Of a DNA stretch of 43,164 nt, positions 134 to 27,016 are shown piece after piece; the first letter of the stretch is position 1; every line of letters starts with the position of its first letter. The position numbers and the translations under genes were made by a program. Source of the stretch: an uncultured Pedosphaera sp. (GTDB taxonomy: Bacteria; Verrucomicrobiota; Verrucomicrobiia; Limisphaerales; Pedosphaeraceae); assembly GCA_903918755.1 (NCBI GenBank), contig CAIXFN010000077.1:1-43164 (forward strand), written 5' to 3'. The notes beneath the pieces are model-generated. The model saw only the letters and a program-made list of their open reading frames with translations. It searched no databases and was not told the origin of the DNA.

Positions 134-484
134 GTGATGGGTTTCGTCGCGCAGTCGGGATCGTTTGGTGACGCCATCTATCACTTGTTCAAGGACCCTC
201 CCCCATTCGGCTATTGCGGCAATATGGTCACCGATTCACTTGGATTGATTCTCAGTATCGGTCCTCCACTGAGCGCTGTCGCAGTTCTCTTGCTGGGTGC
301 TCTTTGGTCGCGGGGGATGGGTGGCGTGTGGTCGGTTGCAACAACTGCGGCGCTGACCCTGGTTTGCACTGCGGCGTTGATCATTTTTGGCGTTTACTAC
401 TATCGCGGTGCCTTGGCCGGGTCGTATTTGCTATCCGACACGGTGTGGTGGATGAGACCGGTTGGGCGATGGTTTGGAATATGA
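134..484 (+). CDS. small membrane protein, possibly 5'-truncated
   Basis: Encodes about 116 residues with two clear hydrophobic segments: roughly residues 36-57, with a LGLILSIGPPLSAVAVLLLG core, and residues 68-88. It ends in an aromatic tail, DTVWWMRPVGRWFGI. GTG at 134 is followed at once by ATG at 137, and neither has a convincing Shine-Dalgarno sequence. The frame stays open further upstream, into the presumed IS end. The true N-terminus may therefore have been removed by the insertion, or translation may start inefficiently at 134/137. It precedes the Imm30-like gene in the same direction, with an 82-nt gap. I do not recognise the family. A role as the membrane part of a toxin/immunity cassette is possible but not shown. 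Confidence 0.5.
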   Translation: MMGFVAQSGSFGDAIYHLFKDPPPFGYCGNMVTDSLGLILSIGPPLSAVAVLLLGALWSRGMGGVWSVATTAALTLVCTAALIIFGVYYYRGALAGSYLLSDTVWWMRPVGRWFGI

Positions 485-566
485 CGGACTTGCCCAAGCC
501 GCGAATTGGATTTCCCAGCGCGTCGAAATCCAACCGTCTACCAGAATATTCCGGAGGAGCCTCAAA

Positions 567-1070
567 ATGAGCAAACTCGACGATCCATTAAACCGTTTGC
601 GCGCGGCACTTGCCGCAAAGCAGGATGGATTCTTCGCTGAAGCGGAGTCTTGTTTGGCAGACCTTTCTCAGCTCAATGACCCAGCCGCGATACCCGAACT
701 TCTTCAACTGTTGGATGCATCCGGTCCTGACGAATTGATGTTTTCCATCCTACACGCGGTTGAAAAATGGGATGATCGCATTTATGGCAAAGCATTGCTC
801 GATTCCGTTGAACGCTTGTGGGAAATGACTCCCAGCTGGGCGCAAATCTTGCATATCAGGGTAATGAATTCGCCAAGTACCGCGGCTGTATATTTCGACC
901 TGGTAAAGTCGGCGCCGAGTGCGACGCGAGGAACAGTTTGTAGTATCTATGAGGCAATTTGCGGACAACGGCCAAGATTAACTGACAAGGTTTCGCCAAT
1001 CCTCGTGGAATTGAAAAACGGCCTGGCTCAGGCAGACGAAGCTTTACGAAACAGGCTGCCAGCGCCCTGA
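567..1070 (+). CDS. probable Imm30-family immunity protein
   Basis: Encodes 167 residues, predicted to be all alpha-helical and cytosolic (no signal peptide). I recall the pattern DPAAIPELLQLLD, then a motif around VMFSILHAVEKWDD-type residues (here ELMFSILHAVEKW), then WAQILHIRVMNSP, from the Imm30 family (PF15565). Members of that family sit beside polymorphic toxins and neutralise them. The start at 567 is chosen because GGAGG lies 8-12 nt upstream and residue 1 begins the folded part. An in-frame start at 462 would add 35 residues that do not look like the family and overlap the previous gene. No toxin gene is visible; the membrane protein upstream and the IS remnant are the only neighbours. 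It converges on the formylglycine-generating enzyme gene, with 38 nt between them. Confidence 0.7.
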   Translation: MSKLDDPLNRLRAALAAKQDGFFAEAESCLADLSQLNDPAAIPELLQLLDASGPDELMFSILHAVEKWDDRIYGKALLDSVERLWEMTPSWAQILHIRVMNSPSTAAVYFDLVKSAPSATRGTVCSIYEAICGQRPRLTDKVSPILVELKNGLAQADEALRNRLPAP

Positions 1071-1108: not shown

Positions 1109-2251
1109 TCACCGCCCGGTCGCCGGACCGCCCGCGGCGCAACGGAATCCGGAGTGGGACAATCCCGTGTCCGGGGTGCATTTCATGCGCGCACCCGGCC
1201 GATAGCCGCCACAATACGAATCATTGCAGAGGTAGGAACCGCCGCGCTGCACCCGCTTCTTCGTGCCCGGCTCTTCCGGATCAAAGCTGTCGGTCGGCCC
1301 CGGCGGATCCTGGGCCGGACTTTGCGCGTAATAATCCGAGCGGTACCAATCACTGCACCACTGCCAGACATTGCCGGCCATGTCGAACAGGCCAAAACCG
1401 TTCGCGGGAAATGAAGCCACCGGGGCCGTCCCGCCAAAGCCATCTCCGGCGGTATTTTCCTTGGGAAAACGGCCCTGCCAAATGTTCGCCAGCCATTTGC
1501 CGCCGGGGGTTTGCTCGCTGCCCCAGGCAAATTCCTGGCGATCCAATCCGCCCCGGGCGGCGTATTCAAACTCCGCTTCCGTGGGCAGGCGCTTGCCCGC
1601 CCACTGGGCGTACGCCACGGCATCCAGCCACGCCACTTGCACCACGGGGTGCTTTTCGCGTCCCAAAATGCTCGAATTCGGGCCTTCCGGATGCCGCCAA
1701 CTCGCCCCGGGCACATAACGCCACCAAGACATCGCATCGGTCAGGGCCACTTCATTTTCCGGGGGGGAAAAAACCACCGCCCCCGGCACCAGCAATTCGG
1801 GTGGCGCCCCGGGAAAGTCCTTGGGATCGGGCTTGCGCTCGGCCACGGTCACATAACCGCTGGCCGTGACAAATCGCTCAAACTCCTCGTTGGTGACCTC
1901 GGTGCGATCCAGCCAGAATCCGGAAAGGCTGACGCGGTGTTGGGGCATCTGGTCCGAGCGCCCGTCCGCCGTTCCCATCCAAAACTCGCCGGCGGGGATC
2001 CAAACCATGCCGTTGGTGCTGAAGCCAGTGGCATTGGTGCGTACGGGAGAAATCGCGGGCGCATTAGTGGGGCGCCCCAGCGACGCTGGGGTAGGTTCGC
2101 TGCGAGGAATGGCGTAGCTGTTTTCCCGTTGTTCCCGGGTTTGCCGGACCAACCGGATCATCCACACGCCCCACAGCACCGCCCCGAGCCCGAAGGCCGT
2201 GATGATGACGGTGGGCACCAGTTGCCACGATTTGCCGGATTCTTTGGTCAT
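1109..2251 (-). CDS. membrane-anchored formylglycine-generating enzyme (SUMF1/FGE family)
   Basis: Encodes 380 residues. One transmembrane segment lies at about residues 11-33, followed by a polar linker and an FGE-sulfatase domain from about residue 80 (MVWIPAGEFWMGT, then HRVSLSGFWLDRTEVTNEEF) to the end. The C-terminal motif SYLCNDSYCGGYR keeps both cysteines, C342 and C347. They match the copper-binding, catalytic pair of human FGE (C336/C341), so this is likely a true formylglycine-forming enzyme and not merely a SUMF-fold protein. Such enzymes oxidise a Cys in CxPxR motifs of type I sulfatases. No sulfatase, and no CxPxR in the three upstream secreted proteins, is visible here. The enzyme domain should face the periplasm. 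It follows the 969-residue secreted protein by 91 nt on the same strand, so co-transcription is plausible. A hairpin and a mini-ORF lie in its leader. Confidence 0.88.
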   Translation of the reverse strand: MTKESGKSWQLVPTVIITAFGLGAVLWGVWMIRLVRQTREQRENSYAIPRSEPTPASLGRPTNAPAISPVRTNATGFSTNGMVWIPAGEFWMGTADGRSDQMPQHRVSLSGFWLDRTEVTNEEFERFVTASGYVTVAERKPDPKDFPGAPPELLVPGAVVFSPPENEVALTDAMSWWRYVPGASWRHPEGPNSSILGREKHPVVQVAWLDAVAYAQWAGKRLPTEAEFEYAARGGLDRQEFAWGSEQTPGGKWLANIWQGRFPKENTAGDGFGGTAPVASFPANGFGLFDMAGNVWQWCSDWYRSDYYAQSPAQDPPGPTDSFDPEEPGTKKRVQRGGSYLCNDSYCGGYRPGARMKCTPDTGLSHSGFRCAAGGPATGR

Positions 2252-2255
2252 GCCA

Positions 2256-2280
2256 GGGGAGGATTATTTCATTACTCCCC
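2256..2280 (-). promoter_or_regulatory. leader hairpin with a three-codon mini-ORF ahead of the FGE gene
   Basis: Read on the minus strand, GGGGAG (2280-2275) is followed two bases later by ATG AAA TAA (2272-2264). A complementary CTCCCC (2261-2256) then precedes the FGE start at 2251 by four bases. GGGGAG is the only good Shine-Dalgarno sequence near the gene and is too far (about 24 nt) from the FGE ATG. It is ideally placed only for the mini-ORF, and it can pair with CTCCCC. Reinitiation or mRNA-structure control of FGE translation is inferred. Confidence 0.35.
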
Positions 2281-2342
2281 GGCGGAACACAACAGGCAAT
2301 TCGACTGCCCGGTAAACGCCCCGCCCTTTTCCCCGCACCAGC

Positions 2343-5252
2343 TCAGGGGCCGGTGTACCGCAACCGGAAGAACTTGGCGTCCGCCAGGCTGCCCAGCGGC
2401 TCCGGATGCTCAAAATAAAATCCGGCCGCCGACATCGCGTAGGGCCCGGGGATGGGCGTCCAAGTCGCTGGTGGATTGAGATCCAGCGTCGATTCCAAGG
2501 TGTATTTGGCAAAATTCGCGCCCCAATAAACCACCACCGCATCCGGGTCCATCCGGATGGCCAGGGGCGCCCGGGTGATCGACTGCGGCAACGGCGGCGC
2601 CACAACGACAGTACCGGCGAAGTCGATGGGATCGCCGGCCGTGGTGGGCAGGCGGGTGGGGAAATCCAAACAATCGCAGGAAGTGAGATCGGCCGTGAGC
2701 GGAATCACCCACAGGCCATTCGTGCCGAAGATGGTCCCCGCCCCCACCAGGGCGTTGCCGCCGGGCGACCAAAGCGTGCCGTGCGGAAAGCCATCGCCGC
2801 TCCGCTGGAAGGCGGTGATCTGGCTGAGGGGCGTCCCATTAGTGCCCGCCACATAAATGTCGTGGCCAATGTCCAGCGAAGAGTAGGTGTTGGCTTGCAC
2901 CAAACTGAAATGCGCTCCATCCGGTGCCCAGGCTGGCCAGCGGCCGCCCGTGATGCTGAGCGGCAGAATTTGCACAGCGGCTAGGTCCGGGGTGGTCACC
3001 AGGACTCCCCCCGTGCTGTGATCAAAAAAGGCCACCCGCCCATCGGCCGGACTGACCGCGGGTGCGTATTGACTGCACTGCGTGGGGAACCCGACCGGGG
3101 TCGCCGCGCCGGTCAGATCAATCTGTTTCAAGCCACAACCATTGTCGAAATAAAGCAACGTTCCCGTCCGGTCCCAATCCAAGCCCACCACCGTGGTCGC
3201 ATTCGAGTAGAGCAACATTTCGTCGCCCGTGCCGAGATTCCGCACCCACAAATCGCCATAGATGCCATAGTTGTCCAGGGGTGGCGTGGTGCTGCGGAGG
3301 AAGGCCAGCCACTTCCCATCGCGGGAGGCGCGCGGCCGGGAACCGGTGGTAATCAGAGCATCCCCGGTGCCGTCCAGATTGATGGCCCAGATGGAGAAAT
3401 TTGTTCCGGCTTTTCGGCCGTAGAAAACGGTGCCTTCGCTGGAATATTGCACCAGCCCGGGATTGGTTGGGGGTACGGCGTTCGTGTCGGGCGGATTGAG
3501 CGTAAAAGCCGGTTGCGGTGTGGGGGTGCCACCCGCCGCAAAAGTGTAGCGGGCGGATTCCAGCCGGGAACGTCCCACCAGGCTGTTCGGAATGGCATAG
3601 TATTCCACAGTGGTGTCCTTGCTGACGGCGAAGGGCACGGTGTAATTCTGCCAGCCTCCGCCTGCCCCGCCCGCCTGTCGGTAAAAAACGTTGTCACTGT
3701 GCGGCTGCGACACGAGCGAGACGGTGATCGGACCCGCATATGCTCCGGGGGGAGGCGTGATCGTGACCAGCAGTGGATCAGCGGCTTGCGGCGCGGAATA
3801 GGTAAAGATGGAAATGTCCTCGCGATATTGTTCCGCCAGGGCAAAAACCGTTCCGGTCGGCGGAGTGCCAAGGTCCGTCGTCACATCATTCCCCAATCCC
3901 GTGGCCGGACCGCCGTCGGTTTCGGTGAGCACCGAAAGACCCGCCGGCAGTCCGCTGATCATGATGCTCCAATCAGCCGCATTCAGGGACGCGAGCAGTC
4001 CGGGAGTGGGGCTCACGAAGGGCTCCCCTTGAAACACCCAGACATTGGCGCGAGTGGTGTTCCGGGTCACCGGTGTCAGATCGCCCGAACTCAATTGGGT
4101 GTAGTTGACCCCATCGAACTGGACCACCTGACCATGGCTCGAAACTCCCCCACTGGTCGGAGCATCGAGCAAAGCAAACTTACCGTCCGCCAAAGGAACA
4201 ACGCCGCTGAAGCGAGCCCCCGCACTGCCAGCGCCGCTGCGATACGCCGGTGCCAGCGTTGGCACCCCGCCCGCCACCGTGAGACCTTGCACGCCATCCC
4301 CAAATTGAATCATGGCGGTGCCATCTGTCCCCATGGGCACATAATAAACCCGCTCCACGGCCTCATCCAAAGTCACCGCCACCTCTGGACCGAAGTCGTA
4401 ACCAGTCCCACTGTTCACCAGGGCCTGCATCACCAGATTGGACTGGCCCGGAACATAAAAGAAAATGCGGGGCATGGTCTCCCCATCGAACAGGCCGAAA
4501 ACATACTCCGTGCCGGAAGCCAGGTTGGTTTTCGTTAACACCTGGGCAAAAGCATCATTGGGCGAGAAAACTTGAAATTGATCGTTCGAGCCCCGCTGCA
4601 TCATCGCCGCCAGGGTCGCGGGATTATCACCAGGATTCAGGGCATTCCCCCGGGCCACCGGACCTGGCGCTGACCGGCTCCCTTGCTGGGTGGGGGGAGT
4701 TCCGGCGGCCAGACCAAACAGTTCCAGCAACGCGGCCCCACCTGGCAGATCATTGTCATTAGAACCCGCGAGCAGAAAATCATAAGTCGCCACCGCCCCG
4801 AACGGCGCCGGCATCCCAATCAGCAACGCCAGCCCGACCCCCGCCGGAGTGATCGTGACCGGCGCCGGGGCATGGTTGGCATCCGCCAGCCCCACGAGAT
4901 TCACATTATTGAGTTCGGGCGAGGTCAGAGCCACCGCATCCAGGGTTGAATCCAGAAACCGCCCCACCGCGATGGCACTGGGTCGCGCTACCCCGGTCGC
5001 CGCGCCCCCGGCCCACGTCAATTGACCGCTGGCATCTTGATAGCCGACCCGGGCGTTGCCCGTGAGTTTGTCCACCACCAGCACATCGGGAATGCCGTCG
5101 CCATTGAAATCCCCGGAGGCCAGGAATTCGGTGGCGGTTTCATAGACGAAACCGCCCGCCTGCGCGGGTGCGGTCAGGGCCACGGCCGCGCCAACCAACC
5201 CGGCCAGGCACCCCGGCCAGACCCGCAAGAAAGAGGTAATTAATGCCTTCAT
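2343..5252 (-). CDS. secreted FG-GAP / chitobiase-C / TolB-type propeller protein
   Basis: Encodes 969 residues with a classical signal peptide (about residues 1-32, ending AQAGG). An FG-GAP/VCBS-like repeat follows at once: FLASGDFNGDGIPDVLVVD, with an acidic DxNxDGxxD loop that could bind calcium. Residues of about 497-575 (ITPPPGAYAGP to ESARYTF) look like the chitobiase/beta-hexosaminidase C-terminal Ig-like module common in Verrucomicrobiota exoproteins. Residues of about 600-850 carry TolB/PD40-like blades (IWAINLDGTGDALITTG, SRDGKWLAFLRS). The C-terminus (YTLESTLDLNPPATWTPIPG onward) resembles small C-terminal beta modules seen in this phylum. No enzymatic residues are apparent. It lies 12 nt downstream of the FN3 protein gene, with an AGG ribosome site before ATG 5252. 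It is probably a structural or binding partner of the two preceding proteins. Confidence 0.8.
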   Translation of the reverse strand: MKALITSFLRVWPGCLAGLVGAAVALTAPAQAGGFVYETATEFLASGDFNGDGIPDVLVVDKLTGNARVGYQDASGQLTWAGGAATGVARPSAIAVGRFLDSTLDAVALTSPELNNVNLVGLADANHAPAPVTITPAGVGLALLIGMPAPFGAVATYDFLLAGSNDNDLPGGAALLELFGLAAGTPPTQQGSRSAPGPVARGNALNPGDNPATLAAMMQRGSNDQFQVFSPNDAFAQVLTKTNLASGTEYVFGLFDGETMPRIFFYVPGQSNLVMQALVNSGTGYDFGPEVAVTLDEAVERVYYVPMGTDGTAMIQFGDGVQGLTVAGGVPTLAPAYRSGAGSAGARFSGVVPLADGKFALLDAPTSGGVSSHGQVVQFDGVNYTQLSSGDLTPVTRNTTRANVWVFQGEPFVSPTPGLLASLNAADWSIMISGLPAGLSVLTETDGGPATGLGNDVTTDLGTPPTGTVFALAEQYREDISIFTYSAPQAADPLLVTITPPPGAYAGPITVSLVSQPHSDNVFYRQAGGAGGGWQNYTVPFAVSKDTTVEYYAIPNSLVGRSRLESARYTFAAGGTPTPQPAFTLNPPDTNAVPPTNPGLVQYSSEGTVFYGRKAGTNFSIWAINLDGTGDALITTGSRPRASRDGKWLAFLRSTTPPLDNYGIYGDLWVRNLGTGDEMLLYSNATTVVGLDWDRTGTLLYFDNGCGLKQIDLTGAATPVGFPTQCSQYAPAVSPADGRVAFFDHSTGGVLVTTPDLAAVQILPLSITGGRWPAWAPDGAHFSLVQANTYSSLDIGHDIYVAGTNGTPLSQITAFQRSGDGFPHGTLWSPGGNALVGAGTIFGTNGLWVIPLTADLTSCDCLDFPTRLPTTAGDPIDFAGTVVVAPPLPQSITRAPLAIRMDPDAVVVYWGANFAKYTLESTLDLNPPATWTPIPGPYAMSAAGFYFEHPEPLGSLADAKFFRLRYTGP

Positions 5253-5264
5253 AAGCCTGCGATG

Positions 5265-8200
5265 TTACTGGGCTGGAATCTCCACTTCGCCCGCGTTGAT
5301 TGTTTCCACAATTTCCTTCTTGTCATCCATTCGCAGGACGAAATAGCGATACCGGGCACCGGCCACGACGGGTTGCTGATCGCGCAAGTAGAAGAATGCC
5401 CGGGTCTGGTCGTTCGCCGTTTCATAACTGACCGCGATCAGCTTGTCCGGAATCGTGATGAAAACGGCGTTGGGTAAGGTTCCTTGCTGCTTCCAAGGGA
5501 TGCTTTCCAGCAAGGGACTCACCTGGACCACGTTGCCCGAAACCCGCGGGAAGGCGGCGTTGGCCACTTGTTGACGATAGAGCACAATCGGAAGCAAAGG
5601 TTGATTCTGGCGCGCCGGATCCATCGACAACCGTTTGAACACAAACCCGTTCGGATCGATTAACGGGGCATCCGAGGGCTGCGGACCGAGGGTGTACTGA
5701 ATTTGGTTTGTGGTGCCCACGGTCGTCATCTGCCCGATGGAGCGGGCCAATTCGGCGAAGCGCACCCCCACCGGATAACGCCGATCCAATCTTTGAAAAC
5801 TCTGGGCATCATAATAATACATCAGGACTGCGGCCACCCGGGGATAGATGGGCGGGAGGCTGTCCGGAGCCGGATTGTCAAACCCGGTGATATCGGGCAG
5901 CGGTCGCTCCGGCCAGGGCACCGTCGGTAATTGGACCGGCGGCTTCCAGGTGAACTTCCATTCCGGGCTGGCGTCCCAGACCTTGCCCTGGGCGTCCACG
6001 GACGCCACCGTGATGCGATAGGTCACATTGGGCACCACCCCGACCGATAGGGAGAATTGCGGGCCCGGTCCAAAACCGGATCCGATCAAAGGCGTCAATT
6101 GCGCCGCGCCATAACTGCTGGATTTCCCGGAACCGAGCCCTGGCACAAGACCAAGGAAGCTGGCATGGGAATTCCAGGTCACCACATCGGTCAGCAGTTT
6201 GTCCGCCACGAAGACATTCTTCTTGCCATCGTTGCGGTCCACCATGACTTGAAACCGGGCCACGCCACTGGTCGGACAAAACCAATTCAACCGGACTTGG
6301 GGGTTGCTCAGGTCGCCAGCTTCCGTTGGCTGGGCCAGGACCGGACGCGGCGGTGGCGATGGCGCCAAAGGTTTGCAACCCAGGAAACTCATGGGACTTC
6401 CATTACCGTGCTCATCCAGCAATTGCACAAAATAGCACAACTGGGCCGCGGCCGACGGCATGGCATCGTCCTTGCAAACGATTTGCTTGGTGGGGTTCGC
6501 CGAATCAAAAGGCGCGGCGGATTGCGCCAGCAACAGCAGCGGCCCGCCATTGACACTGCGATAGAGCCGGTATTCCCGGGTGCGCGGGGTCAGGCCAAAC
6601 TGGATATTGATCGGGGCGACCGGCCCGTTATCCGCCGCCCGGGCGACATGTTGTTCGCAATCCGGCAAATGCGGCAATTTCATGACGCAACCACGGATGG
6701 GCGGCAGTGGCCCCAAAATGCACGCGGGATAGGAAACCCAGTACATTTGGTTGGTATCGGGCCAGACCACGCCATAAGAGGTCCAAACCGTGTTGCTGGT
6801 CATGATCTCCACCAGCATCGGCGTGCCGGCCGACACGGGAAATTTCATCCCCACCGTCCCGCTGGGATCGGGCGTGGGATTCATGGCGTAATAGCAGGCA
6901 ATGCCTCCGTTTAAGGTTGAGAGCAGCGGATCGTTGGCGCTAAGCGCCGTCTCCAGGATTTGCCCGCCGTAAAAAACATACTCCCGCCGCTGGCCGGAGG
7001 GCACGACGGTCGTGATGCTGGCGAGGGTGGGAGCGGAGGTCAGGCCGGTGAAAGTGCCCACCACACAACCAATGTCGTAGCTGGGCGCCGCGCCCTCGAC
7101 CCGCACGCTGTAATCCATCTGGGCCGTACTGGCACCGGGGGCGAAATAAATGGGCCCGTATGTTCCCACATACAGCCCGGAATTGGTCACCGAAAACTGG
7201 ACCCAGGCCACCCCCAAATCCCGCCGCTGGCAGGTGAAGCGAAAATTCCAGTTATTCGCGTCCGGAGGGTTGGTCAGATTATTGACCGCCTGAAATTGAA
7301 CCACCGGCGTGCCGCAACTGCCAAAGATCGCCCCTGTCGTCGCCGGGGGTGCCTCGCGCTGCCGGAGCACGCCCCAAGCCGGAGCGCTGTGCGGGGACAG
7401 CAAAGGATCGCATTTTCCCACGCTGACCGCCCGCACCGTGTACCAGTAATTGCTCACTCCGGCCGTCGCCGGTGAATCGGGCCCGTTATCGAGAAATACC
7501 CCCGTGTTGGTCCCGGCCACATCCGCCACGATCCCCACGCGGTTGGCCGTGGGATCAGCGTCATTCCGCAACGCCCCCGCGGGGTTTTGCCAGCGGTAGA
7601 TCCAATAGTGGGTGATGAAGTTGGTGCGATCCACATTTTGCTGCCAACTGATTTGAAAGCGTTGTTGATTCGTCACCCCGTCACCCGCCAGCGGCAGCAC
7701 TTGCACGTTGTTCAGGACCTTGGCGCCGGTGGGCGCGAGCGGCGGACGCCGCCGACACGCTTGGGCCAATCCACCGGGCGAAACGAGGCCATCGCGGCCC
7801 AAAACATCGCGGGCCGTCACAAAATAGTAGTACTGCGCGCCATCCTCAAAGGCCGTGCCGCCGCGCGAAAACCCATTGTCATCCGAAAAGAAATAAGTGC
7901 TCAAATCAGCCGGATCATCCGCCGCCCCGGCGCCTGAACCCGCGGAGAAATCCTTACCCGCCGTGACCGGCGCCCGATTGACCTGGATAAATTTGCCACT
8001 GTTTTGCAGATCGGTCAGCGCGGGCGGATTGACATCGTAGCCGGCGGCGACCGCGTCCGCCTGGGGAATGCGCCACAGATTGTAACCGAAACTCAAGAGC
8101 GAAAGCCGGCGTAATTCATCCGGCGAGCCCCACCGCAGGCGGATCTTCAGATGGTCGGACGGGGCATTGGTGACCACTTGGAAAGGCTTCCCGGGCGCCG

Positions 8201-8861
8201 GAAGGGTAACCGGGAAGCCAGGATTGATGGTGACTCGTCCCGCCACATCACCGGCGGCGCCCGTCGCCGGATTCACCTCGCGAATTTCGTAGGTGGTAAC
8301 GCCGGAAATCGGCTCGGCAAACCCCTGCCCGAGGCTCAAGGTCATCCCGGGATTGACCCGGGCCAGTAACGCCACCACCTGGGCCACCGCGGGATCCGAT
8401 CGACTGCGATCAAGGGCCGTCACTACTTTTTGCGCCAGGGTTTGGTTGGTAATCCCCGGAATCGCGTGCAAAAGCACTTCCAAAGCATGATTCAGGCCCG
8501 TCAAATCCTGTCCCAGGAAAACCGATTGATTCAGCAATGCATCCGCCGTCGCCGCATCGCCCGCTGGATAAATCTGACCGTGTTGCGTAAACGCCCCGGC
8601 ATCGGCCGGGCGCCCGGATTTGCCGTAAACAGCGAAGCGGCGGCCTGCCAACAGGCCGGGCTGCGGCGAGCCCACCAATACGTAAGACCAATCGCGGCCC
8701 GTGTTGTCGCGGATGGTCGTCCCCACCGAAAACACCAGGTTGCTGAAGAGATTCTGGGCCAATCCGGTTCCCGGCAGCAGGAGGATCGCGGCCAGGAAAC
8801 ATCCGGACCACCAAGCCGCCCCGAACCGGGCCCTCCCTTGCCTCAAGTTTTTCGTTTGCAT
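5265..8861 (-). CDS. large secreted FN3-repeat protein
   Basis: Encodes 1198 residues with a signal peptide (about residues 1-35, hydrophobic AAILLLPGTGLAQ). FN3-like beta sandwiches are visible at about 374-497 (FQISWQQNVDRTNFITHYWI to NYWYTVRAVSVGKC), 744-837 (TREYRLYRSVNGGPLLLL to CYFVQLLDEHGNG) and 838-970 (VRLNWFCPTSGVARFQVMVD to YRITVASVDAQGK). A repeat-poor N-terminal region contains a Leu-rich part (about 90-175). The C-terminal 200 residues have no recognised domain. Its ATG shares one base with the stop codon of the 2093-residue gene (TGATG), and there is no separate ribosome site. The two products are therefore probably made by coupled translation in a fixed ratio, which suggests they act together outside the cell. 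Function unknown. Confidence 0.78.
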   Translation of the reverse strand: MQTKNLRQGRARFGAAWWSGCFLAAILLLPGTGLAQNLFSNLVFSVGTTIRDNTGRDWSYVLVGSPQPGLLAGRRFAVYGKSGRPADAGAFTQHGQIYPAGDAATADALLNQSVFLGQDLTGLNHALEVLLHAIPGITNQTLAQKVVTALDRSRSDPAVAQVVALLARVNPGMTLSLGQGFAEPISGVTTYEIREVNPATGAAGDVAGRVTINPGFPVTLPAPGKPFQVVTNAPSDHLKIRLRWGSPDELRRLSLLSFGYNLWRIPQADAVAAGYDVNPPALTDLQNSGKFIQVNRAPVTAGKDFSAGSGAGAADDPADLSTYFFSDDNGFSRGGTAFEDGAQYYYFVTARDVLGRDGLVSPGGLAQACRRRPPLAPTGAKVLNNVQVLPLAGDGVTNQQRFQISWQQNVDRTNFITHYWIYRWQNPAGALRNDADPTANRVGIVADVAGTNTGVFLDNGPDSPATAGVSNYWYTVRAVSVGKCDPLLSPHSAPAWGVLRQREAPPATTGAIFGSCGTPVVQFQAVNNLTNPPDANNWNFRFTCQRRDLGVAWVQFSVTNSGLYVGTYGPIYFAPGASTAQMDYSVRVEGAAPSYDIGCVVGTFTGLTSAPTLASITTVVPSGQRREYVFYGGQILETALSANDPLLSTLNGGIACYYAMNPTPDPSGTVGMKFPVSAGTPMLVEIMTSNTVWTSYGVVWPDTNQMYWVSYPACILGPLPPIRGCVMKLPHLPDCEQHVARAADNGPVAPINIQFGLTPRTREYRLYRSVNGGPLLLLAQSAAPFDSANPTKQIVCKDDAMPSAAAQLCYFVQLLDEHGNGSPMSFLGCKPLAPSPPPRPVLAQPTEAGDLSNPQVRLNWFCPTSGVARFQVMVDRNDGKKNVFVADKLLTDVVTWNSHASFLGLVPGLGSGKSSSYGAAQLTPLIGSGFGPGPQFSLSVGVVPNVTYRITVASVDAQGKVWDASPEWKFTWKPPVQLPTVPWPERPLPDITGFDNPAPDSLPPIYPRVAAVLMYYYDAQSFQRLDRRYPVGVRFAELARSIGQMTTVGTTNQIQYTLGPQPSDAPLIDPNGFVFKRLSMDPARQNQPLLPIVLYRQQVANAAFPRVSGNVVQVSPLLESIPWKQQGTLPNAVFITIPDKLIAVSYETANDQTRAFFYLRDQQPVVAGARYRYFVLRMDDKKEIVETINAGEVEIPAQ

Positions 8862-11800
8862 CAGTAATCAATGTGAAAGTCCAAACCACCATCCGTCACC
8901 ACCCCCCGGATTGAGATCCCCTTGCAACCGGAGACGCAGAAGGGACAATAACCGATGGAACCGCAAACCTCGGCGGACCCACTGAAATCCAATTCCGGAC
9001 CGCCCGGACCGATGCCGGCCGCGACTCCCATCGTCGTTTCCACGTGGCCGCTCAGCAGACACAACAGGGATAGATCAATCGAATCCTTCTGGCGGAAACC
9101 GATTTTTCCCGTGTGCGCCCCGCCTTCATAGTATGTGGCGCACGTCACCTCGGCTTCGATATCCAATAGGCAGCTGGAGATGCCAAATAATATTTCTGAG
9201 AGCGACAACCCGCCGCCATATTCAATGTAAATACCCGTGAAACTCACCGGATTACCCAGCACATCGCCCACCTCCGGATCCACAAATTTCAAGGTATTCA
9301 GGTCGCACGCGTGGCCCGCAAAAATTCCCGCGTGCACATCCACCGGCACGCCAAAGACCACCACGCTGCCCGCCACTTTGGCGGCCAGATAATTCTCGAT
9401 TTCCCCGATGGAAAATGTGGCCCCCACTTCCTTGATACTGCACCCCTTGAAGTCGGCCTTGCCCTTGATGTCGATCAAGCCGCCGACCCCCAGCACCGCG
9501 CCGCTTTGGAGAGTCCAGCGGGCTTCAATGGTGAGTTTGAGGGGCGGACCGCCACCACTGACTCCCGCCCAGTTCAGCGGGATGTCCTTGGCCCCCAAGG
9601 TGACTTCCGCCGCGGGGGCTCCCGGGGGAATGCAATCCAATGGCGTGGACGCCGAATCCAGTTCCTTGATGTCCAGGTAGGCCTGAAAGGTCATGGCGTC
9701 CGGCAAATTCACCTGAATGTTCCCATCCAGGTGGATGCGCCGGAGGGAATCACCCTCAAAAGTCGGGGCGCCGCGGATTTTGGCCGAGGCCAGCGATTTC
9801 GTCATTTGGCCAATGCCCTTCAGCGCCTGAAGCACCCCGTCATTGCCTTGTCCCACCTGCTTCTCAATGCCATCGCGAATGGCCCGATTGATTTGATCAA
9901 AGAGCACATCCAGCAGTTGATCCAGCAAAGAGCTGCCCTCGCCAAAGAATTGCCGAAAATCCTTCTGATAGCTCCCCACGATGGGCGACCCCAGGAAAGC
10001 CATCGTGAGACGTTCGCGAATGGCGTCTTTGGCAGCGATGGGATTGGCCGTGAAGTAATCCCCCGTCGGCGTCACGGAAGTGGCGCACAGATCAGCCACC
10101 GCGCTCCCTGCCGCCTGCAGGAACGGCTGCACATTGACCGTGTTGTGCACGACATCATCCAACGCCCGCGGCAGGTCGCCCGTGGCGGAATTCAAGGTGG
10201 CCTTCACCTCCGCGAACTGCGAACGCAGATCTTTGAGTTCCAACTCAATCTGGGCGAGCGTAGGTTCCAACTCCGCCGTCAGGTCCGCCGCCGCCTGATC
10301 GGCAATATCTCCAATCAATCCCAACTCCGGCAATTGGTCCTCGACCAGCTTTTTCACCAGGGTGCTGATGACATGCCGATCCCCCTGCGCGTCCTTTTCC
10401 ACCACGCGCAGAAACAGTCCGATCGTGTCGTCGACATCGGAATAGGTATGCTGAATTTTCCCGAGCACCCCGTTGACCTGGCCGATGGCCCCGTTAACGG
10501 TGCTGATGGCACTCCCCAAACCGTTGACGGGATCGGTGACAATGCCACTCACCTTGGCTTGAAAACCGCCCGGATCGTTTTTGTAGGCGGTCGCCAATTG
10601 ATTGTAAATTTGGTCCACGACGGATCCCCCCGGTCCGGAGGAAGACAACAAGGGGCCGGCGGGATCCGCCAGCAACGGGCGGAAGAAAGGTCCGGCATCC
10701 TCCCGCAGCACGGCTTGCAAACTCTGGAAACCGCTGCTGGCGCCGGAAGTATCCAGATCTTTCGAAATAGCCTTGTGCAAGGCGTCCGTCAGCGAGTTGA
10801 TCGGTGAAAATGCCTCATCCACGGCATCATTCACAAAATCCAACACTTTGATCCGCGGCAGGGCCAGGGTGATATCCTGGGCAAAATCAAAATCCACCTT
10901 GCCCGGGGTCAGTTCCTTCAAGTTGCTATCGACATCAATCACCGGCAGGTAGGCGGTGTCCTTATGTAAACCGGTAAATTTGTGCAACAACGGACTCCAG
11001 GAAAGCGCGTAATCAAACTTCGCCACTTCGATCCAATCGCGCTGCGCCCGTGGGTGGTAATCCTCTGTTTTGGAATTCCGGTAGGCGTCTACATTCGCCA
11101 GGGTCTGGGGAAAACCGTCATGGTTCAGATCAAATTTGGCCCCGGTGAAAAAGTCGTAATTATTGCTGTCGCGCCAGCCCAGGTTGAGCCCTGAGCCGTC
11201 GGCTTTCGGCCAGCCGCCCATGACATAGACTTCGGACGAGTTGGTCCCGGTGGGCCGCACATGCAAATGCACCTTCACTTCCCCGAAAAAGGGCGTTTTG
11301 ATTTTGCCGGCGATATTGTAAAAGCCTTCATCGGGCCGGTGCGGGCTGGCATAATTGTTAAAATACGAATCCCCCGATGTGGCCAGTGTAAAGGTGCTGT
11401 TGCCCGGCCCTTGGAGGTTCAAAGCGGGTGGCGGCGCGAACCGCGAATTGCAGCCTTGCAACGCCATTGCCGCCGTCGTCAGGTTGCCATCCGCCTGGAA
11501 ACCCAGGAGGGCATGGAAGGCCTGCGGGATAAACGGCAGTTTGGTTTCGACGCCCAGCACCAAAAAGCGGGTCGCCGTGTCGCACACTTCGGTGGCCAGC
11601 GGACGGAAATCAATGGTCTGCGGAACGATGTCCGTGTTCCAGTAGGCCATGTGGTCGGGGGGGCTATTCGCAGGCACGCGGGCGGAATCCAGCCCTCCCC
11701 GGCAAAAGAACTGCATGCGCTCAAAATTCTGGGTAAAGTCCGCCGGATACGGCAGTTTCACGCTGCCATCAGTCCGGGACTCGTGGGTCTGGCTGTCCAA

Positions 11801-14800
11801 AAAGGAGAGGCGATAGCTGGTGAAGGTGAATTTATAGCCATACAGCGTAAGGTTCGGCGGAAAGGAGGCGGCTTCATGAATGCCACTGACCCCGCCATAC
11901 CGGACATAATACTTGGCCCGATCGGTTAGCGGATACGAGTCGATTTGGACGCCGGCGAGGTAACTCCGGCCGGTGGCGGGACGGCGGAAATTCAAGCCCG
12001 CGTAATTCGCCTGGCCGTTCGCGTAGTCGGCCGGATGATCCGGACTTTCGCGTAAATCGGGCGTTGTCGCATTACCCACCCCGGTGAAAAGCATTGCGGG
12101 AGCCTGTTCCTCCGGTGGCAGAGCAAACTGCCCCCCCAGAACGAAGGTTCCTGGCATCCGGTACACGCCGGCACTCACGGGACTGGTTTCCTGGGCATAG
12201 CTGGTCCCGCCGGCGAATCCCCACTTCAGTCCGGCGGGCGGGATCGCTCCAAATCCTAGCAATCCGCCTTCCGGAGTGAATTGCAAACTTCCGCTGTCCG
12301 AGGTGAATGCCAGTGAGGTCTTCCCGATGGTTGCCCCGCTGCAATTGGTGTCGCCACAATCCTGCGAATAGACCACCGGCACCGCTCCCACCACCGGCAA
12401 ACTGCTGGCACTGGGGTCAATCTTATCATTCAGGATGCTCAAAAAGGCCCCCGCTCCCACAGTGATCTGGTTCCCGGAGACCCGGCCCGCATACGGGAAA
12501 TGCGGACGCAATTCCGGGGGATTCAAGGCCACTTGCGTGGTCAGTTGCGCCACGCCGTTGGTGTCAGCCGTCACCACGACGGAGGCGCCGGCCGCCAGGC
12601 TGAGATTGCGGTAGTAACCGTCGTTGGAAACCCGCGTCGCCGAGCTGGGATCCGTGAGGGTGGTGCGCACCCCATCCAGAAAGTCATCCTCACTTTGGCG
12701 GGCAAAATACAGCGGATTGGGCCCTGGCAACAGAATCTGGCCGCCGTTCACCACCCAATGCAGCGAGGAGGCGCCAACCCAAAAGGGCTTGGTTTCCTCA
12801 ATCGCCCAAAGGGGTCCCGCCATGACCAGTTCGGCCGACTGCGGATGCAGACTGGCATCCAAAGTCTGGTTGAAAAAAGTGATTTGATTGGTGGCCACAT
12901 GATTCGTTACACCGTTGGCCACCGCCAGACCCAGGGGCAATTGCAGTTGTACGGTCCCGTGGATCCCCACCCCGCGCGCCATGACCACATTGGTGCGGAT
13001 ATAGCAGATGTTCTGGCTGCAATCCACATCTGGGATTGGCCCGAACAAGCTGATGCCGGGCAGCAATTCCGTGGCATTCCCATCGTCCCCCAGCACCGCC
13101 ACCAAAGTCGTGCCGTTGCCATAGTGGTAGGCGGGATTGGCTACCAGGGTGCCGGAATTCGCATTGACCGCAAGTTGGGTGTCGAAACCGCCGATGTCGT
13201 TGTTGCCTCGCGCCGGATTGTTTCCCACGGAGGTGAAGGTGGTGTCGTTGCTGTCGAAAAACAGATGTCCGTTAAAATGCAACCAAGTGCTCAGCGTCAA
13301 GTCATTTTCCTCGTCGGTTACCATCGTGCCACCATCGGGCAGGTGCGAAAAGACCACGCTCGCGGAATAGCGATCGCTCACGGATTGCAACTGGTTCGCC
13401 GGCGTCACATTCAACACGGTCGAGAAGGTCACCACAGCACCCGGATTTGGCGGTGCGGAGGCATTGTATGCGCTCAGGGTCAGCGCATTCACCAACGCCG
13501 CGGGTGTTTGCAAGGGCACCGCAACACTCCCGGCATCCTGCACCGTCGCGGCCAGCGTGGCGGTCACCCCCAGAGGCGCAGGGGCATCGCCGTAGTCGTA
13601 AAAACGCCGGAGCGTCGCCTGCGCGGGCACCGGAAAGGAACTGTAAGCGGGACTGTTCTGAATCGACCACAGCCGCCCGTAAGCCGCGTAGTCGAGGGAA
13701 CCCAGCAAATACTGGCTGCCGTCCCCAATGCGGGCGAGCGATCCCGTCCGGGTCAACACCCCGCTGGCAGTGCCATCGGACAATCCCGCCAAATCCGTGG
13801 CTACATTTCCACCGGCTTCATCAAATTCATAGGCGGATACCAACCCTGGCTCGGTGCCAGTCAGGGGTAAATGCGCATACTGGTTGATCTGGGCGGGCGT
13901 CAGGGCGGTATTCCAAATGGACGCGTGGTCCAGTTGCCCATTGAAAAATTGCCCGCTTCCCCCCACATAAGTGCCCAGGCGCACATCAGTCAAAGTCATG
14001 GTTGGCCCGGGATTATTATTCCAAGGTTGGGTGTTCACCAACTGACCATCGATGAACGTGCGACCGGAGGTGGTATCCACCACGAAGGCCACATGATGCC
14101 ACTGGCCATCCGCGACAAACCGGTCGCTCGCGCTGGAAAAACCGGGCTCCACATAGTCCGTCAAATCCGCGTAATACCACGGCGCGAGTCGTCCCGCGTT
14201 CAAGGCCAGCGCCCAACCGGCTCCGACTCCTCCCTGGTATTTGGTCATGATGCCGGGATAGGCACCAACGGCTTGGCTGGTCTTGATCCACGTCATCAGC
14301 GTGATCGGAAGCGAATTCTGGGCGTCTTGATGCGGAATATCGATCTGATCGGAGATTCCATTGCATTTGAGGGCCGTGCCCGCCACCGGCGCCAGCACGA
14401 CGGGTGCAGTGGAGGGGATCCAGGGCGGTGTTCCCGCGAGACTGAGCGGGTGGGCATTGTTCACCGCATCCCGGGCGACATTCCCCAACCCGTCGTCCAA
14501 ATGCCACAACGACAGCAACCCGGCTTCCTGGCCCGAAAGCACCCGGTGCTTCATATAATTCAGCGCATCCAAGCTCAGCGCCTCGCTCCAAATGGAAACC
14601 TCATCGATTTCGCCCCGGAAGGATGGAACAAAATTATCCAAACGACCGATCAGCAGGGGTTCGGTCGATGTCGAAACTCCCGGTGAGCGGGTCCACCCGC
14701 GGGCATCCCGCTGGCCGCCATCCACCACCACCCGCGCTCCATTGCCATCCACCACGAACGCCACGTGATGCCAGGCGCCATCGGCAATCAGCCCCCCGTC

Positions 14801-15142
14801 CAAGCCCTGACCGCCATCCCAGACATAATCGGAAGGATCCCGAAAATACCACGCGCGCACGTGCCCATTGTAAAGGTAAACCGACCAACCGTTGAGGGAG
14901 GAGGATTTGTAATGGCTGGCAATGCCCCGGATGAAAGTGTCCTGATTGGTGGTGCGGACCCAGGCCGTAACGGTGAGTGGAAAGGAGTTGAACGCGGCGC
15001 CCGCGGTGATTTGCGCGAACGCATTGGTGCCATCAAACCTCAAAGCAGTGCCGGCCGCCGCGGCGCCCTCGCCCATCCAAAAGCATCCGCAAATGAGAGC
15101 GCTGATGGCAAAACTTCGAAACCATATTAATTTCTGTTTCAT
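8861..15142 (-). CDS. giant secreted protein with two LamG domains, helical core and Cys-containing beta tail
   Basis: Encodes 2093 residues. The signal peptide is about residues 1-30. Two concanavalin-like LamG domains lie at about 30-245 and 250-455. Both carry the typical WVRTTNQ/WIKTSQ strand, the WHHVAFVVD strand, and an IDEVSIW or LDHASIW strand. Residues 455-1430 are beta-rich without a recognised family. Residues of about 1430-1790 are strongly helical, with long amphipathic stretches such as LTAELEPTLAQIELELKDLR that could form a coiled coil. The last 300 residues return to amphipathic beta strands and end with several cysteines (GYCPFCVSGCKGI). No catalytic motif is seen. It is the first gene of the block, preceded by an AT-rich region that it shares with aroE. 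The LamG modules suggest glycan or protein binding; the whole could be a surface structure or adhesin. Confidence 0.8.
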   Translation of the reverse strand: MKQKLIWFRSFAISALICGCFWMGEGAAAAGTALRFDGTNAFAQITAGAAFNSFPLTVTAWVRTTNQDTFIRGIASHYKSSSLNGWSVYLYNGHVRAWYFRDPSDYVWDGGQGLDGGLIADGAWHHVAFVVDGNGARVVVDGGQRDARGWTRSPGVSTSTEPLLIGRLDNFVPSFRGEIDEVSIWSEALSLDALNYMKHRVLSGQEAGLLSLWHLDDGLGNVARDAVNNAHPLSLAGTPPWIPSTAPVVLAPVAGTALKCNGISDQIDIPHQDAQNSLPITLMTWIKTSQAVGAYPGIMTKYQGGVGAGWALALNAGRLAPWYYADLTDYVEPGFSSASDRFVADGQWHHVAFVVDTTSGRTFIDGQLVNTQPWNNNPGPTMTLTDVRLGTYVGGSGQFFNGQLDHASIWNTALTPAQINQYAHLPLTGTEPGLVSAYEFDEAGGNVATDLAGLSDGTASGVLTRTGSLARIGDGSQYLLGSLDYAAYGRLWSIQNSPAYSSFPVPAQATLRRFYDYGDAPAPLGVTATLAATVQDAGSVAVPLQTPAALVNALTLSAYNASAPPNPGAVVTFSTVLNVTPANQLQSVSDRYSASVVFSHLPDGGTMVTDEENDLTLSTWLHFNGHLFFDSNDTTFTSVGNNPARGNNDIGGFDTQLAVNANSGTLVANPAYHYGNGTTLVAVLGDDGNATELLPGISLFGPIPDVDCSQNICYIRTNVVMARGVGIHGTVQLQLPLGLAVANGVTNHVATNQITFFNQTLDASLHPQSAELVMAGPLWAIEETKPFWVGASSLHWVVNGGQILLPGPNPLYFARQSEDDFLDGVRTTLTDPSSATRVSNDGYYRNLSLAAGASVVVTADTNGVAQLTTQVALNPPELRPHFPYAGRVSGNQITVGAGAFLSILNDKIDPSASSLPVVGAVPVVYSQDCGDTNCSGATIGKTSLAFTSDSGSLQFTPEGGLLGFGAIPPAGLKWGFAGGTSYAQETSPVSAGVYRMPGTFVLGGQFALPPEEQAPAMLFTGVGNATTPDLRESPDHPADYANGQANYAGLNFRRPATGRSYLAGVQIDSYPLTDRAKYYVRYGGVSGIHEAASFPPNLTLYGYKFTFTSYRLSFLDSQTHESRTDGSVKLPYPADFTQNFERMQFFCRGGLDSARVPANSPPDHMAYWNTDIVPQTIDFRPLATEVCDTATRFLVLGVETKLPFIPQAFHALLGFQADGNLTTAAMALQGCNSRFAPPPALNLQGPGNSTFTLATSGDSYFNNYASPHRPDEGFYNIAGKIKTPFFGEVKVHLHVRPTGTNSSEVYVMGGWPKADGSGLNLGWRDSNNYDFFTGAKFDLNHDGFPQTLANVDAYRNSKTEDYHPRAQRDWIEVAKFDYALSWSPLLHKFTGLHKDTAYLPVIDVDSNLKELTPGKVDFDFAQDITLALPRIKVLDFVNDAVDEAFSPINSLTDALHKAISKDLDTSGASSGFQSLQAVLREDAGPFFRPLLADPAGPLLSSSGPGGSVVDQIYNQLATAYKNDPGGFQAKVSGIVTDPVNGLGSAISTVNGAIGQVNGVLGKIQHTYSDVDDTIGLFLRVVEKDAQGDRHVISTLVKKLVEDQLPELGLIGDIADQAAADLTAELEPTLAQIELELKDLRSQFAEVKATLNSATGDLPRALDDVVHNTVNVQPFLQAAGSAVADLCATSVTPTGDYFTANPIAAKDAIRERLTMAFLGSPIVGSYQKDFRQFFGEGSSLLDQLLDVLFDQINRAIRDGIEKQVGQGNDGVLQALKGIGQMTKSLASAKIRGAPTFEGDSLRRIHLDGNIQVNLPDAMTFQAYLDIKELDSASTPLDCIPPGAPAAEVTLGAKDIPLNWAGVSGGGPPLKLTIEARWTLQSGAVLGVGGLIDIKGKADFKGCSIKEVGATFSIGEIENYLAAKVAGSVVVFGVPVDVHAGIFAGHACDLNTLKFVDPEVGDVLGNPVSFTGIYIEYGGGLSLSEILFGISSCLLDIEAEVTCATYYEGGAHTGKIGFRQKDSIDLSLLCLLSGHVETTMGVAAGIGPGGPELDFSGSAEVCGSIGYCPFCVSGCKGISIRGVVTDGGLDFHIDY

Positions 15143-23677: not shown

Positions 23678-26600
23678 TCATTTCGGCTTCTTGAACAGAT
23701 CAAACAATTTACCGACCGGCGTGGCATTGGTGCTGGCATTTGTACTGGTGTTGGGCACCGGCGCATTCGTGGCACCCGCATCCGGCTTGGCTTTGCTCCC
23801 ACCAAACAGATCGCCCGCCGCGTTCAGCAGAGAGCCAACCTTATCCACTCCCGCCCCACCAATCTCCTTGGTCATGCCCCCACCCACCTTGGCGGCGAGT
23901 TTCAGAATCGCGAGTTTGTCGAGATCCGTCTTGGGTTTGCCCAAGGTTCCTTTCATGGTGACGAAATCTGGCAGGCTGACATACGCGGTGTTGGTGACAG
24001 TGACGGCGTTCGCCAAACCGATTTTTCCCGCCGGTCCCGGTGCCAGGGCCACCTGGACGGGAATTTGGATGGCCGAATCGTTCAGGATCTCCGCCAGGGT
24101 AATGTCTCCCTTGGCGAGCACCTGAAAAATCGCGCTGCGAATCTCGGCCGGCTGCAACTGGACCTTTCCATTCGCGACCCGGGCTTGTAAGGAAAGGACA
24201 TCAATCGGTGTGGCCGTCAATTGATCCGCCCAACCACCCTTGGTGCCACCGGTCCGTCCGATGATCCCGCCGATGATGTTGTCCACGGTCCCGAGGGGAT
24301 TGCGAATGAGGTCCGGGATGCTTACCACGACATTGATCACGGAATTCAGCAGCGGTGAACGTACGTTCGCAACCGACAAATTCAGGTTCGTGGCCTGCAA
24401 ACTCAAGTCCGCGCCCAAATGACTCTCCCAACCGGCGGGCGTGACTCCCGCGCCTTGCAGATGCGTCGCCACCGTCGCCGCGCCCGACAACTGCCCCTTG
24501 CGGTCGGGCACGAAGGAATTCACCAGGGGTGCCAGCGGAACCGCCGTGGCCTTGAAGGTAATGTCATACTTGTAGCCCGGCACGCTCAGGTCCAGATCCA
24601 CCCCGGCGCCCACCGGCGCCTGATTCAGTGTCAATTCGCAGGGCTTGACCTGCACATGACTGCCGTCCAGTAGCACGGTGGTCTTCCAGTTGGCGATGTC
24701 CACCTCCTCCAGAAATAAATGCCCGATGCTCAGATCCAGCGTGAAATTCTTCACCGGCAACGTGACAGCATCCGGTTCCTTGGCGGGGGCGGACGCTTTT
24801 GCAACCACCGCCTCCGCGGGCGGCCGATTCGTCAACGCGCTCTTGGCTCCGGTGATCAACTCAAAGTAGTGACTCACATCAAGGGCCTCTGCCGTGAATT
24901 TCACATCCCCGGTGATGGCGGCGGGAACGGAATAGTCCACCTTGCCGGCCAGTTGCAACTCGTTCTTCGCGCGCGCGGTGGGCGGCAAAACCAGCTTGGC
25001 GGTCAGGGTCGCCTGTTTCTTTTGCGTGGTCAAACGGCCTTGGAAGTCCAGCGCCCCATTAGTGCCGCGGGTGGCGGGAGAATCCAGGAGCGCGGCGAGC
25101 GCGGCTTGCAATTGGAACTGGAGATCGGCGTCCTGGGTCTGGGCTTCGAAGGAACCACTCCCGGATACTTTCAGCGCCGATTGGCCATTGCGGGTCAACT
25201 CCAGTTGGTAATTGTCCAACTTGGCATGTTGGAACTCGCCGAGACTGCCCTTCGCCTGGATGCGCATATCCCCCTGCTTCACCCGGGCGCCCATCGGGCC
25301 GGTCGCGATCTGGTCGATACGCGTATCCACCTCGAATCCGAGTTGCCTGCCGGCTTTTTGGGCGAGCAATTTCACCGTCACATTCGCCACGGCCGTGGGC
25401 GCATTGGAGCCCGTGAACGCCGCCCAATCCGCCAGGGCAAAGTTTGTCACCACCAAATTGAGTGCCGCATCTCCCACCGCACTGGTGTTGCCCCCCCAAC
25501 CCAAAGTCATGGGACTCGAAAGCCCCGCCTGCAGAAGCTGACGCGCGTTCTGCGTGCCGGCGAGATTCAAAGTCCTTACGACAACGGACGAGGCGGCCCG
25601 ATCCACCGCAATCGAGTAATCGCCCTGCAGTTCCAGGGTGGGTGAAGTCTGGCTTTGGCGGGATACCTGGAAGTGGGCGACATTCCAGCGCCCCAGCGTG
25701 TTGATCAGGGCTCCACCCTTGGTGAACTCCACTTCATTGGTGGCACTGATCGTGGTGGTCCCAAAGTCCAAACCGCTGGCCGCCCCCGCCAGATTCAAAG
25801 CCCGCTTGTCCACTCCGACAATTTCCAACCGCAGTTTCCCCTCGGACTTGGCGGTGTCGAAGGGACCGCTCAACCGCACTTCCCCCAGGACCGCGTCGGC
25901 CCGGGTCAACCGCACCGCCAGTTGTTTCAATTCCGTGGGCGAAAGTTCGCAATCCAGCCGCACCGCCGCCGTGCCCAAATCCGCGAGGGACCCGCTGGCC
26001 TTTTCCACTGTCAGGGTGGTATTGCCGCGCGCCAGGGCGGGTTTCAAATCCGGGGTCAGGGTAATATCAAAAGCCCCCGCCAACTTCGCTTGCAGGGCGC
26101 CAGCCGGCGCGGCGGGTTGGGCGGCCTTGTCCATGACCACGACGGCCCCGATTTCCAACTTGCCAGCCTGGCCATTCTTGAGCCCGCTGACCTGGAAATT
26201 GAGTCCGCTCATTTCCGTGAGATCGCGCCCCCCGCCTTTGTAGCTCTTCGTCATCCGAAAGGTGCCATTATTGATGGCCACCTTTTTGATATCCACTTGC
26301 AAGGCTTTGCCCGACTGGCTGGGCTGCTTCGAGGGCGCTTTGCTCCCCTGGGCCAGGGCTTTCAGCACCGCATCCAGATTGCTGGTGCCATCCGCGTTCT
26401 CGATCAATGTCACCATGGGCGTCTCCACGCTCACTTCCTCCACGAGCAGATTACCGTGCAAAATGGCCCAAAGCCCATACACCGCCCGCACTTCCTTCAC
26501 GGTCACCAAGGGCTCGCCACCATGGGGCTGGACTTTCAAATCCTTCAAAAGGACCCGACTGAACGGGCTGATCTGCGCCTCCGCCACTGTCACTTCCGAC

Positions 26601-26770: not shown

Positions 26771-26932
26771 AATGACAGTTTACGGGGACACTTTGGGCAT
26801 GGCAACTGGTTCAATTTCGCCCGCCAAAGCCCAACATCATGCCAAAGTGGCGTTTTGCAATGGGCTGGCGCGGAAATTCTTGGGGGAAAATGGCCGTTAC
26901 TTGGGGCCAAACAATCAGGCTGCCGCTGGGAG

Positions 26933-26947
26933 GGGTTCTTGGAACCC
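26933..26947. repeat. interrupted palindrome GGGTTCTTGGAACCC
   Basis: A perfect 6+6 inverted repeat with a 3-nt spacer in the 292-nt gap between the M16 peptidase and AsmA-like genes, upstream of the latter on its strand. It is related to the palindrome at 23561-23574. Confidence 0.3.
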
Positions 26948-26984
26948 AGTTTCTGTCGTTCGTCTGGCCATAAGAGCTCCGAGG

Positions 26985-27016
26985 AAGCACACCCGCCGAG
27001 TTCGCCGGGCGTGCTT
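26985..27016 (-). terminator. hairpin downstream of the M16 peptidase gene, weak terminator candidate
   Basis: AAGCAC (26985-26990) pairs with GTGCTT (27011-27016), and CCCG (26992-26995) with CGGG (27006-27009), around a ten-base loop with one mismatch. It lies about 47 nt past the M16 stop codon. On the minus strand no U-run follows, so it may only protect the 3' end. Confidence 0.35.

Follow-up and report, generated by a model that had tools for sequence, protein, structure and literature searches.

A conserved set of three genes for giant exported proteins in Verrucomicrobiota and its formylglycine-generating enzyme neighbour

In a contig from an uncultured Pedosphaera sp. (Verrucomicrobiota, Limisphaerales, Pedosphaeraceae), three very large genes for proteins with export signals lie back to back on one strand and are followed by a gene for a formylglycine-generating enzyme (FGE). 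This arrangement raises the question which of these genes belong together and what their products might do. The stretch analysed, called the window here, is the whole contig (G000:C77; 43,164 nt) of a 7.19-Mb assembly. The three large genes were labelled A (8861..15142, 2093 residues), B (5265..8861, 1198 residues) and C (2343..5252, 969 residues), and the FGE gene (1109..2251) specifies 380 residues. All four are located on the minus strand. Stop and start of A and B overlap by 1 nt (...TAC TGATG CAA...), 12 nt separate B from C (5253-5264), and 91 nt lie between C and the FGE gene (2252-2342). The original prediction had placed the four open reading frames (ORFs) in this way, with junctions of -1, 12 and 91 nt, and had proposed signal peptides for the three large proteins. 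Both statements were confirmed, the second by Sec-type N-termini that were recognized by eye in the translations of all three. Judged in the same way, the N-terminus of the FGE is transmembrane-like. Position 2252, given as the beginning of the block, falls inside the gap between C and the FGE gene, so that the latter is located outside 2252-15142.

The search with A in 97 genomes near the window revealed full-length or core relatives in many of them, along with matches restricted to its LamG part. From these genomes and from hits across the phylum, 64 loci were picked for carrying A, and the surrounding ORFs were scored by profiles for the three proteins. All three genes were present at 54 of the 64 loci, and at every one of these 54 they were found in the order A-B-C on one strand, far more than expected by chance. 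Ten loci were incomplete, seven with A and B, two with A only and one with A and C, and in eight of them the locus is cut by a contig end. The incomplete set at L076 is explained by another gene order, since a longer fetch yielded B-C-A (L159/L076 in G088). This arrangement, still contiguous, is that of two sets of genus g45 (L156 in G400, and G088). A few sets, e.g. L057 and the one in G400, seem to have been disrupted by frameshifts or stop codons. An overlap of exactly 4 nt between B and C is seen at 23 of the 54 loci, and both junctions are within 50 nt at 34 of them, start codons being uncorrected in these counts. The window's own genome harbors three A-B-C sets, and the closest named match to A is a protein with 91% identity from a metagenome-assembled genome (MAG) of Pedosphaera sp.

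Because the 64 loci had been picked by A, each protein was also searched singly in 293 genomes of the order, and the matches were counted from hand-read lists. Strong matches to A were detected in 57 genomes and to B in 56. All 56 genomes with B also contain A and C, and B without A was not found among the 293 genomes. The co-occurrence anticipated for the three secreted proteins in related genomes is therefore seen in 56 of the 57 genomes with A. The genome carrying A without B (G068) is 66% complete and contains an A fragment only. C-type matches without A were obtained in three genomes, in G059, which is 57% complete and where the match ends at a contig end, and, as partial matches, in G421 and G441. 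For the whole phylum, 288 genomes were drawn, 21 of which showed a match to the A profile, 19 strong ones with the window's own genome included and two weak matches to the helices. Twenty of these loci were fetched; 15 contain B and C, four contain B with the remainder cut by a contig end, and one contains A alone. The set is patchy in its distribution, yet extends to further orders and classes within the phylum.

Comparisons of the three proteins among each other were performed for 46 of the 54 complete loci, kept after length filters and the removal of L057. Pairwise distances are strongly correlated (A/B 0.957, A/C 0.914, B/C 0.911), and none of 2000 permutations reached these values. Of 31 splits in the A tree with a support above 0.9, 21 recur in the B tree and 16 in the C tree. 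None of the three sets within the window's genome has another of them as its closest relative, an observation compatible with their inheritance or transfer as units. With several paralogues, A, B and C differ in which relative is the closest, so a degree of mixing or noise persists. The three genes are co-inherited, and it is very likely that their products act together. Retention of the set, about 4,000 residues in all, in different orders and classes, together with its repetition inside single genomes, strongly points to one shared machine.

The fourth gene gave a different picture. Its product matches Pfam FGE-sulfatase at 4.7e-80 over residues 79-372, and the best match in the PDB is 2q17. 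Cys342 and Cys347 align with SYLCHDSYC / SYMCHRSYC of solved FGEs and correspond to the catalytic cysteine pair. The NCBIfam equivalog for GldK/PorK of type IX secretion scored 134 bits against a cut-off of 350. In a six-frame check, 55 of the 64 loci hold C, and 42 of these, the window included, extend at least 1500 nt beyond it, while the other 13 end too soon. At none of the 41 testable loci other than the window was an FGE-like ORF detected beside the set. G001, the nearest relative, with A of 91% identity, encodes the FGE orthologue (76%) on another contig. Matches at orthologue level, with 61-76% identity, were obtained in six of ten other A-bearing genomes (G001, G005, G007, G026, G031, G047), always on contigs other than that of the set, and the remaining four gave weak, partial or no FGE matches. 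In G005, G007 and G031 the orthologue adjoins a gene resembling the sulfatases of the window's genome. A sulfatase-like neighbour was not seen in G026 and G047, nor in the stretch from G001, where the choice of ORFs also hid the FGE ORF itself. The window's genome has 22 sulfatase-domain matches, 20 of them over the cut-off, and the sulfatase-type motif was found in two of its sulfatase loci; the FGE substrate motif C-x-P-x-R is present in none of A, B and C of the window. Between C and the FGE gene there is a weak terminator-like hairpin (2293..2311, minus strand; two sites against 0.3 expected when both strands of 2150-2450 are considered), and a sigma-70-like promoter was not found in this gap.

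Because the FGE gene is missing at all 41 loci, its orthologues lie on other contigs, three of them beside a sulfatase-like gene, and A, B and C lack the substrate motif, the FGE was rejected as a fourth member and appears to be a chance neighbour. From the proposed four-gene block, A, B and C therefore persist as a conserved unit and the FGE drops out, together with its supposed co-occurrence. SUMF1/FGE genes located beside sulfatase genes share the Pfam family and the cysteine pair with the fourth gene, which differs by its transmembrane-like N-terminus and has no conserved tie to A, B and C.

What the three proteins might do has to be judged from their architecture. Protein A consists of accessory N-terminal modules and a core of about 1600 residues (residues ~473-2093) conserved phylum-wide. 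Two LamG stretches were recognized in its N-terminal part (Pfam Laminin_G_3, 1.2e-41), the first at residues 37-192 (14567..15034, minus strand as for all parts of A) and the second at about residues 254-421 (13880..14383), with limits taken from an NCBIfam TafC match far below its cut-off. The LamG region was matched in 13 of 54 A proteins; LamG is an accessory, exchangeable part of A. In L102, one of four A proteins scanned from other orders or classes, a DUF5122 propeller is present at the N-terminus. The core begins with residues 473-893 (12464..13726), for which no known family was found. According to a structure model of residues 894-2093, which together with B was the part modelled, this is followed by a beta-rich region (894-1423; 10874..12463), a predicted helical bundle (1433-1763; 9854..10846) and a stretch of some 16 long amphipathic strands in a barrel-like arrangement (1785-2093; 8864..9790). 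Combining the model with the alignment, cysteines 929, 934, 1147 and 1187 were assigned to the beta-rich region and 1837, 1946, 1991, 2028, 2066 and 2069 to the final one, which has an aromatic C-terminus. These ten cysteines are conserved in 37-45 of 46 A proteins. C929 and C1147 are both present in 41 of the 46 proteins and both absent in five, and C1991 and C2028 vary together perfectly. C1187 also tracks the latter two; since the same two proteins are without all three, cysteine pairing in A is suggestive, not proven.

Known families contributed little to the cores, as no Pfam, NCBIfam, PADLOC or PDB sequence family covering those of A and B was found. Profile A1 matched helical or coiled-coil proteins among the solved structures, and these hits look compositional (60 of 121 matches listed), while profiles A2, A3, A7 and A8 yielded nothing credible against PDB sequences. 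A viral fold library gave one row (E 9.9e-4, probability 0.33), which was not used.

For B, the structure model shows a string of FN3/Ig-like domains with FN3 fold matches, e.g. with a Z of 11.6 and 2.4 Å over 95 residues. FN3 had no Pfam match in B of the window, and Pfam fn3 was obtained in one of 29 B proteins, at 0.0052. Residues C809 and C829 are both present in 37 of 46 B proteins and both absent in nine. Protein C begins with FG-GAP, detected by Pfam at 1.4e-4, exactly at the cut-off, and its C-terminal half is variable. Among 22 aligned C proteins, PD40 is found in four and TSP3 repeats in 12; for a propeller in the second half of window C, there is no Pfam match in this copy. Of the modules originally proposed, LamG in A and FG-GAP in C are accordingly recovered by Pfam and FN3 in B solely in the AlphaFold2 model, whereas the propeller in C is without a match.

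On these grounds, we tentatively propose that A, B and C form an exported cell-surface complex for binding, in adhesion or in the capture of glycan-rich material, although the chance of this being correct is put at somewhat below even. The proposal is based on export, recognition modules and the rod and propeller architectures. A, B and C would be the products of one operon-like module making a multi-protein complex at the cell surface and would be exported by Sec. Protein A would act as the hub, with a disulfide-stapled core of about 1600 residues. Its N-terminus would carry exchangeable recognition modules, two LamG domains here and a DUF5122-type propeller in a relative from another order, and its helical segment would lead to a C-terminal beta-rich domain that may anchor A at the outer membrane. 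Protein B would be an extended rod of FN3/Ig-like domains, and C would be of the propeller type, its C-terminal modules varying between PD40-like and TSP3-type. The set may be controlled by a Ser/Thr kinase and an extracytoplasmic function (ECF) sigma factor that some genomes encode next to it.

Several observations weigh against this picture. The permutation test retains shared species history, which contributes to the correlations, and several of the loci compared are paralogues in one genome. A lone A gene exists at L158 (G336:C4, 9167-14587; also L106) with neither B nor C close by; the genome possesses a full set elsewhere (L119). LamG, FN3 and FG-GAP are widespread among secreted proteins, and no function can be read from them. 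The model of A 894-2093 is weak, with a mean predicted local distance difference test (pLDDT) of 66.6 and a predicted template modelling score (pTM) of 0.41; the values for B are 75.5 and 0.38. A Sec heuristic was positive in 38 A, 49 B and 41 C proteins of 54 each, with start codons uncorrected. No cysteine is conserved in half of the 46 C proteins. Moreover, the N-terminal third of C is also found in standalone proteins of about 720-740 residues, many in genomes without A and B. An FGE-like domain is part of these relatives, yet in nine of nine the aligned positions lack the cysteine pair, so that these proteins do not rescue the link to the FGE. The physical complex, its surface location, the disulfides and the role in binding are what we infer.

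Among other explanations, the one faring best is an autotransporter-like export of three partners, in which the C-terminus of A would be a 16-stranded outer-membrane barrel inserted by the barrel assembly machinery (BAM) and the remainder of A would be displayed through or on it, perhaps along with B and C. The end part of A shows about 16 amphipathic strands of 7-17 residues after a long helix. With VIA-align it superimposes on MOMP (Z 13.6, 4.8 Å, 225 residues) and OpdQ (Z 13.7, 5.7 Å, 250 residues), model confidence being moderate, and Foldseek lists porins with probabilities up to 1.00 at E values of 0.02 or worse. Furthermore, A ends in F or Y at 37 of 54 loci, compared with two of 54 for B and one of 54 for C. 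On the other hand, the strand list of A shows no clear asymmetry of long loops and short turns, no Pfam barrel family was found in window A (E 0.1), and profile A7 detects none in the PDB. A also has conserved, co-varying cysteines, which are unusual for barrels. Since these cysteines and the loop lengths fit poorly, the barrel is regarded as unlikely, though a serious candidate. Type V autotransporters and other outer-membrane barrels resemble A in the Sec-like signal, the long N-terminal part, the helix before the C-terminal beta domain and the often aromatic end. Type V autotransporters differ from it by having 12 strands instead of about 16, and A has in addition conserved cysteines, two linked partner genes and no family match.

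Somewhat less probable again is a secreted structural matrix, such as a sheath, a stalk, a biofilm or an envelope layer, in place of a binding machine. Giant modular proteins, the FN3 rod, the TSP3 repeats of C (12 of 22 proteins) and the presence of several sets in some genomes would agree with such a role, but the exchangeable N-terminal domains of A fit recognition better, and the distribution is patchy. A role as a large toxin or predation complex, in the manner of Tc toxins, is improbable. Three adjacent giant exported proteins, a helical bundle between beta domains and a patchy occurrence in several variable copies are reminiscent of it, but no RHS, TcA, TcB or known toxin domain was detected in window A, B and C with Pfam and NCBIfam, PADLOC gave no match, the fold match to XptA1 is at noise level (E 0.18), and no recurrent small gene was seen among neighbours of at least 100 residues within 6 kb of what was fetched.

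Very improbable is a reading of A as a bacterial counterpart, in architecture, of the large lipid-transfer proteins vitellogenin, ApoB and MTP. Foldseek ranks such proteins first for A, seven of the eight best rows belonging to this family (E 1e-4 to 0.02), and the order of beta, helices and beta is alike. Yet the Foldseek probabilities are low (0.08-0.47), as are the TM-scores on query length (0.06-0.08), there is no Pfam match, and VIA-align yields a root-mean-square deviation of 11 Å. Finally, modification of A, B and C by the adjoining FGE, as put forward in the original prediction, has the 91-nt gap, the common strand and the retained cysteine pair in its favour, but is hardly credible given the missing C-x-P-x-R motif, the lack of conserved adjacency at 41 testable loci and the orthologues beside sulfatase-like genes in three genomes.

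Returning to the surface binding complex, surface adhesins with LamG, FN3 and FG-GAP share the accessory modules of A, B and C, whereas the cores of A and B, without a known family found, and the fixed three-gene set distinguish the present system. Less probable, though to be taken seriously, is that A-B-C represents a phylum-wide, previously undescribed class of surface machine, distinct from known autotransporters, two-partner systems and toxin complexes, in which a giant hub anchored in the outer membrane with swappable recognition heads would need two giant partners of its own. In searches of the open-access literature, titles and the openings of abstracts showed no description of the set.

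The origin and spread of the set were also considered. A plasmid or phage origin was rejected, as plasmid matches (11 records) and phage matches (two records) cover only LamG or adjacent parts of A. PHROG matches are confined to residues 18-421 of A, and a scan of viral contigs with two patterns revealed no relative. PADLOC assigned no family to the four window proteins, and an anti-phage defence system was accordingly dismissed. Scanning contigs with the two patterns, which miss divergent forms, yielded 22 loci, all from Verrucomicrobiota groups or from entries named plainly 'bacterium' except L083 from a Candidatus Solibacter MAG. The DNA of L083 is 86-89% identical to L094 on a Limisphaerales contig, and it is therefore probably mis-binned.

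Around the 64 loci, ORFs of at least 100 residues within 6 kb of what was fetched were surveyed, and those present at three or more loci were considered recurrent. Five such clusters were obtained: protein-kinase-type genes at eight loci, ECF-sigma-type genes at five, histidine-kinase-like genes at four, and two clusters limited to three loci of one genus (L107-L109). In G007, kinase-type and ECF-type genes, additional to these counts, are both located beside the set. A Pfam check of six ORFs identified kinases in L051, L056 and L160; for the ECF sigma factor there was a match in L160 and a weak one in L051, and the L064 ORF was not matched. Kinase-type genes, sometimes with an ECF sigma gene, were noted near the set at L051, L056, L064, L066, L101, L113, L114, L115 and L160, those of L051 and L056 with WD40 repeats. 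This resembles the pairs of kinase and ECF sigma genes in bacteria of the Planctomycetes-Verrucomicrobia-Chlamydiae (PVC) group, but such genes do not accompany the set consistently and were not seen beside the window copy, where divergent genes for a shikimate dehydrogenase and a prepilin peptidase are found.

Further observations concern standalone relatives and other large genes. Nine standalone C-type ORFs (L144-L146, L148-L151, L154, L155) were recorded, seven of the nine genomes being without a strong A match, and some of these ORFs adjoin a recurrent oxidoreductase-like gene, named by eye. In the window's own genome, several LamG stretches occur in giant ORFs of about 1500 residues (G000:C101:76484-84552). 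Near the contig start, the window encodes an Imm30-family immunity protein (462-1070, plus strand; 5.3e-10) beside the end of an ORF at 1-87 that runs off the contig; this could possibly be the tail of a polymorphic toxin locus. A run of large genes on the minus strand (23678-38890) specifies an AsmA/DUF748 protein, an M16 peptidase, a 971-residue ORF without Pfam match, two Band 7 proteins and a DUF3857/transglutaminase protein.

Verrucomicrobiota are common in soils and waters, but few have been cultured, and little is known of how they make contact with surfaces, polymers and other cells. With the FGE removed as a false lead, the A-B-C set is a clear and testable target in this phylum.

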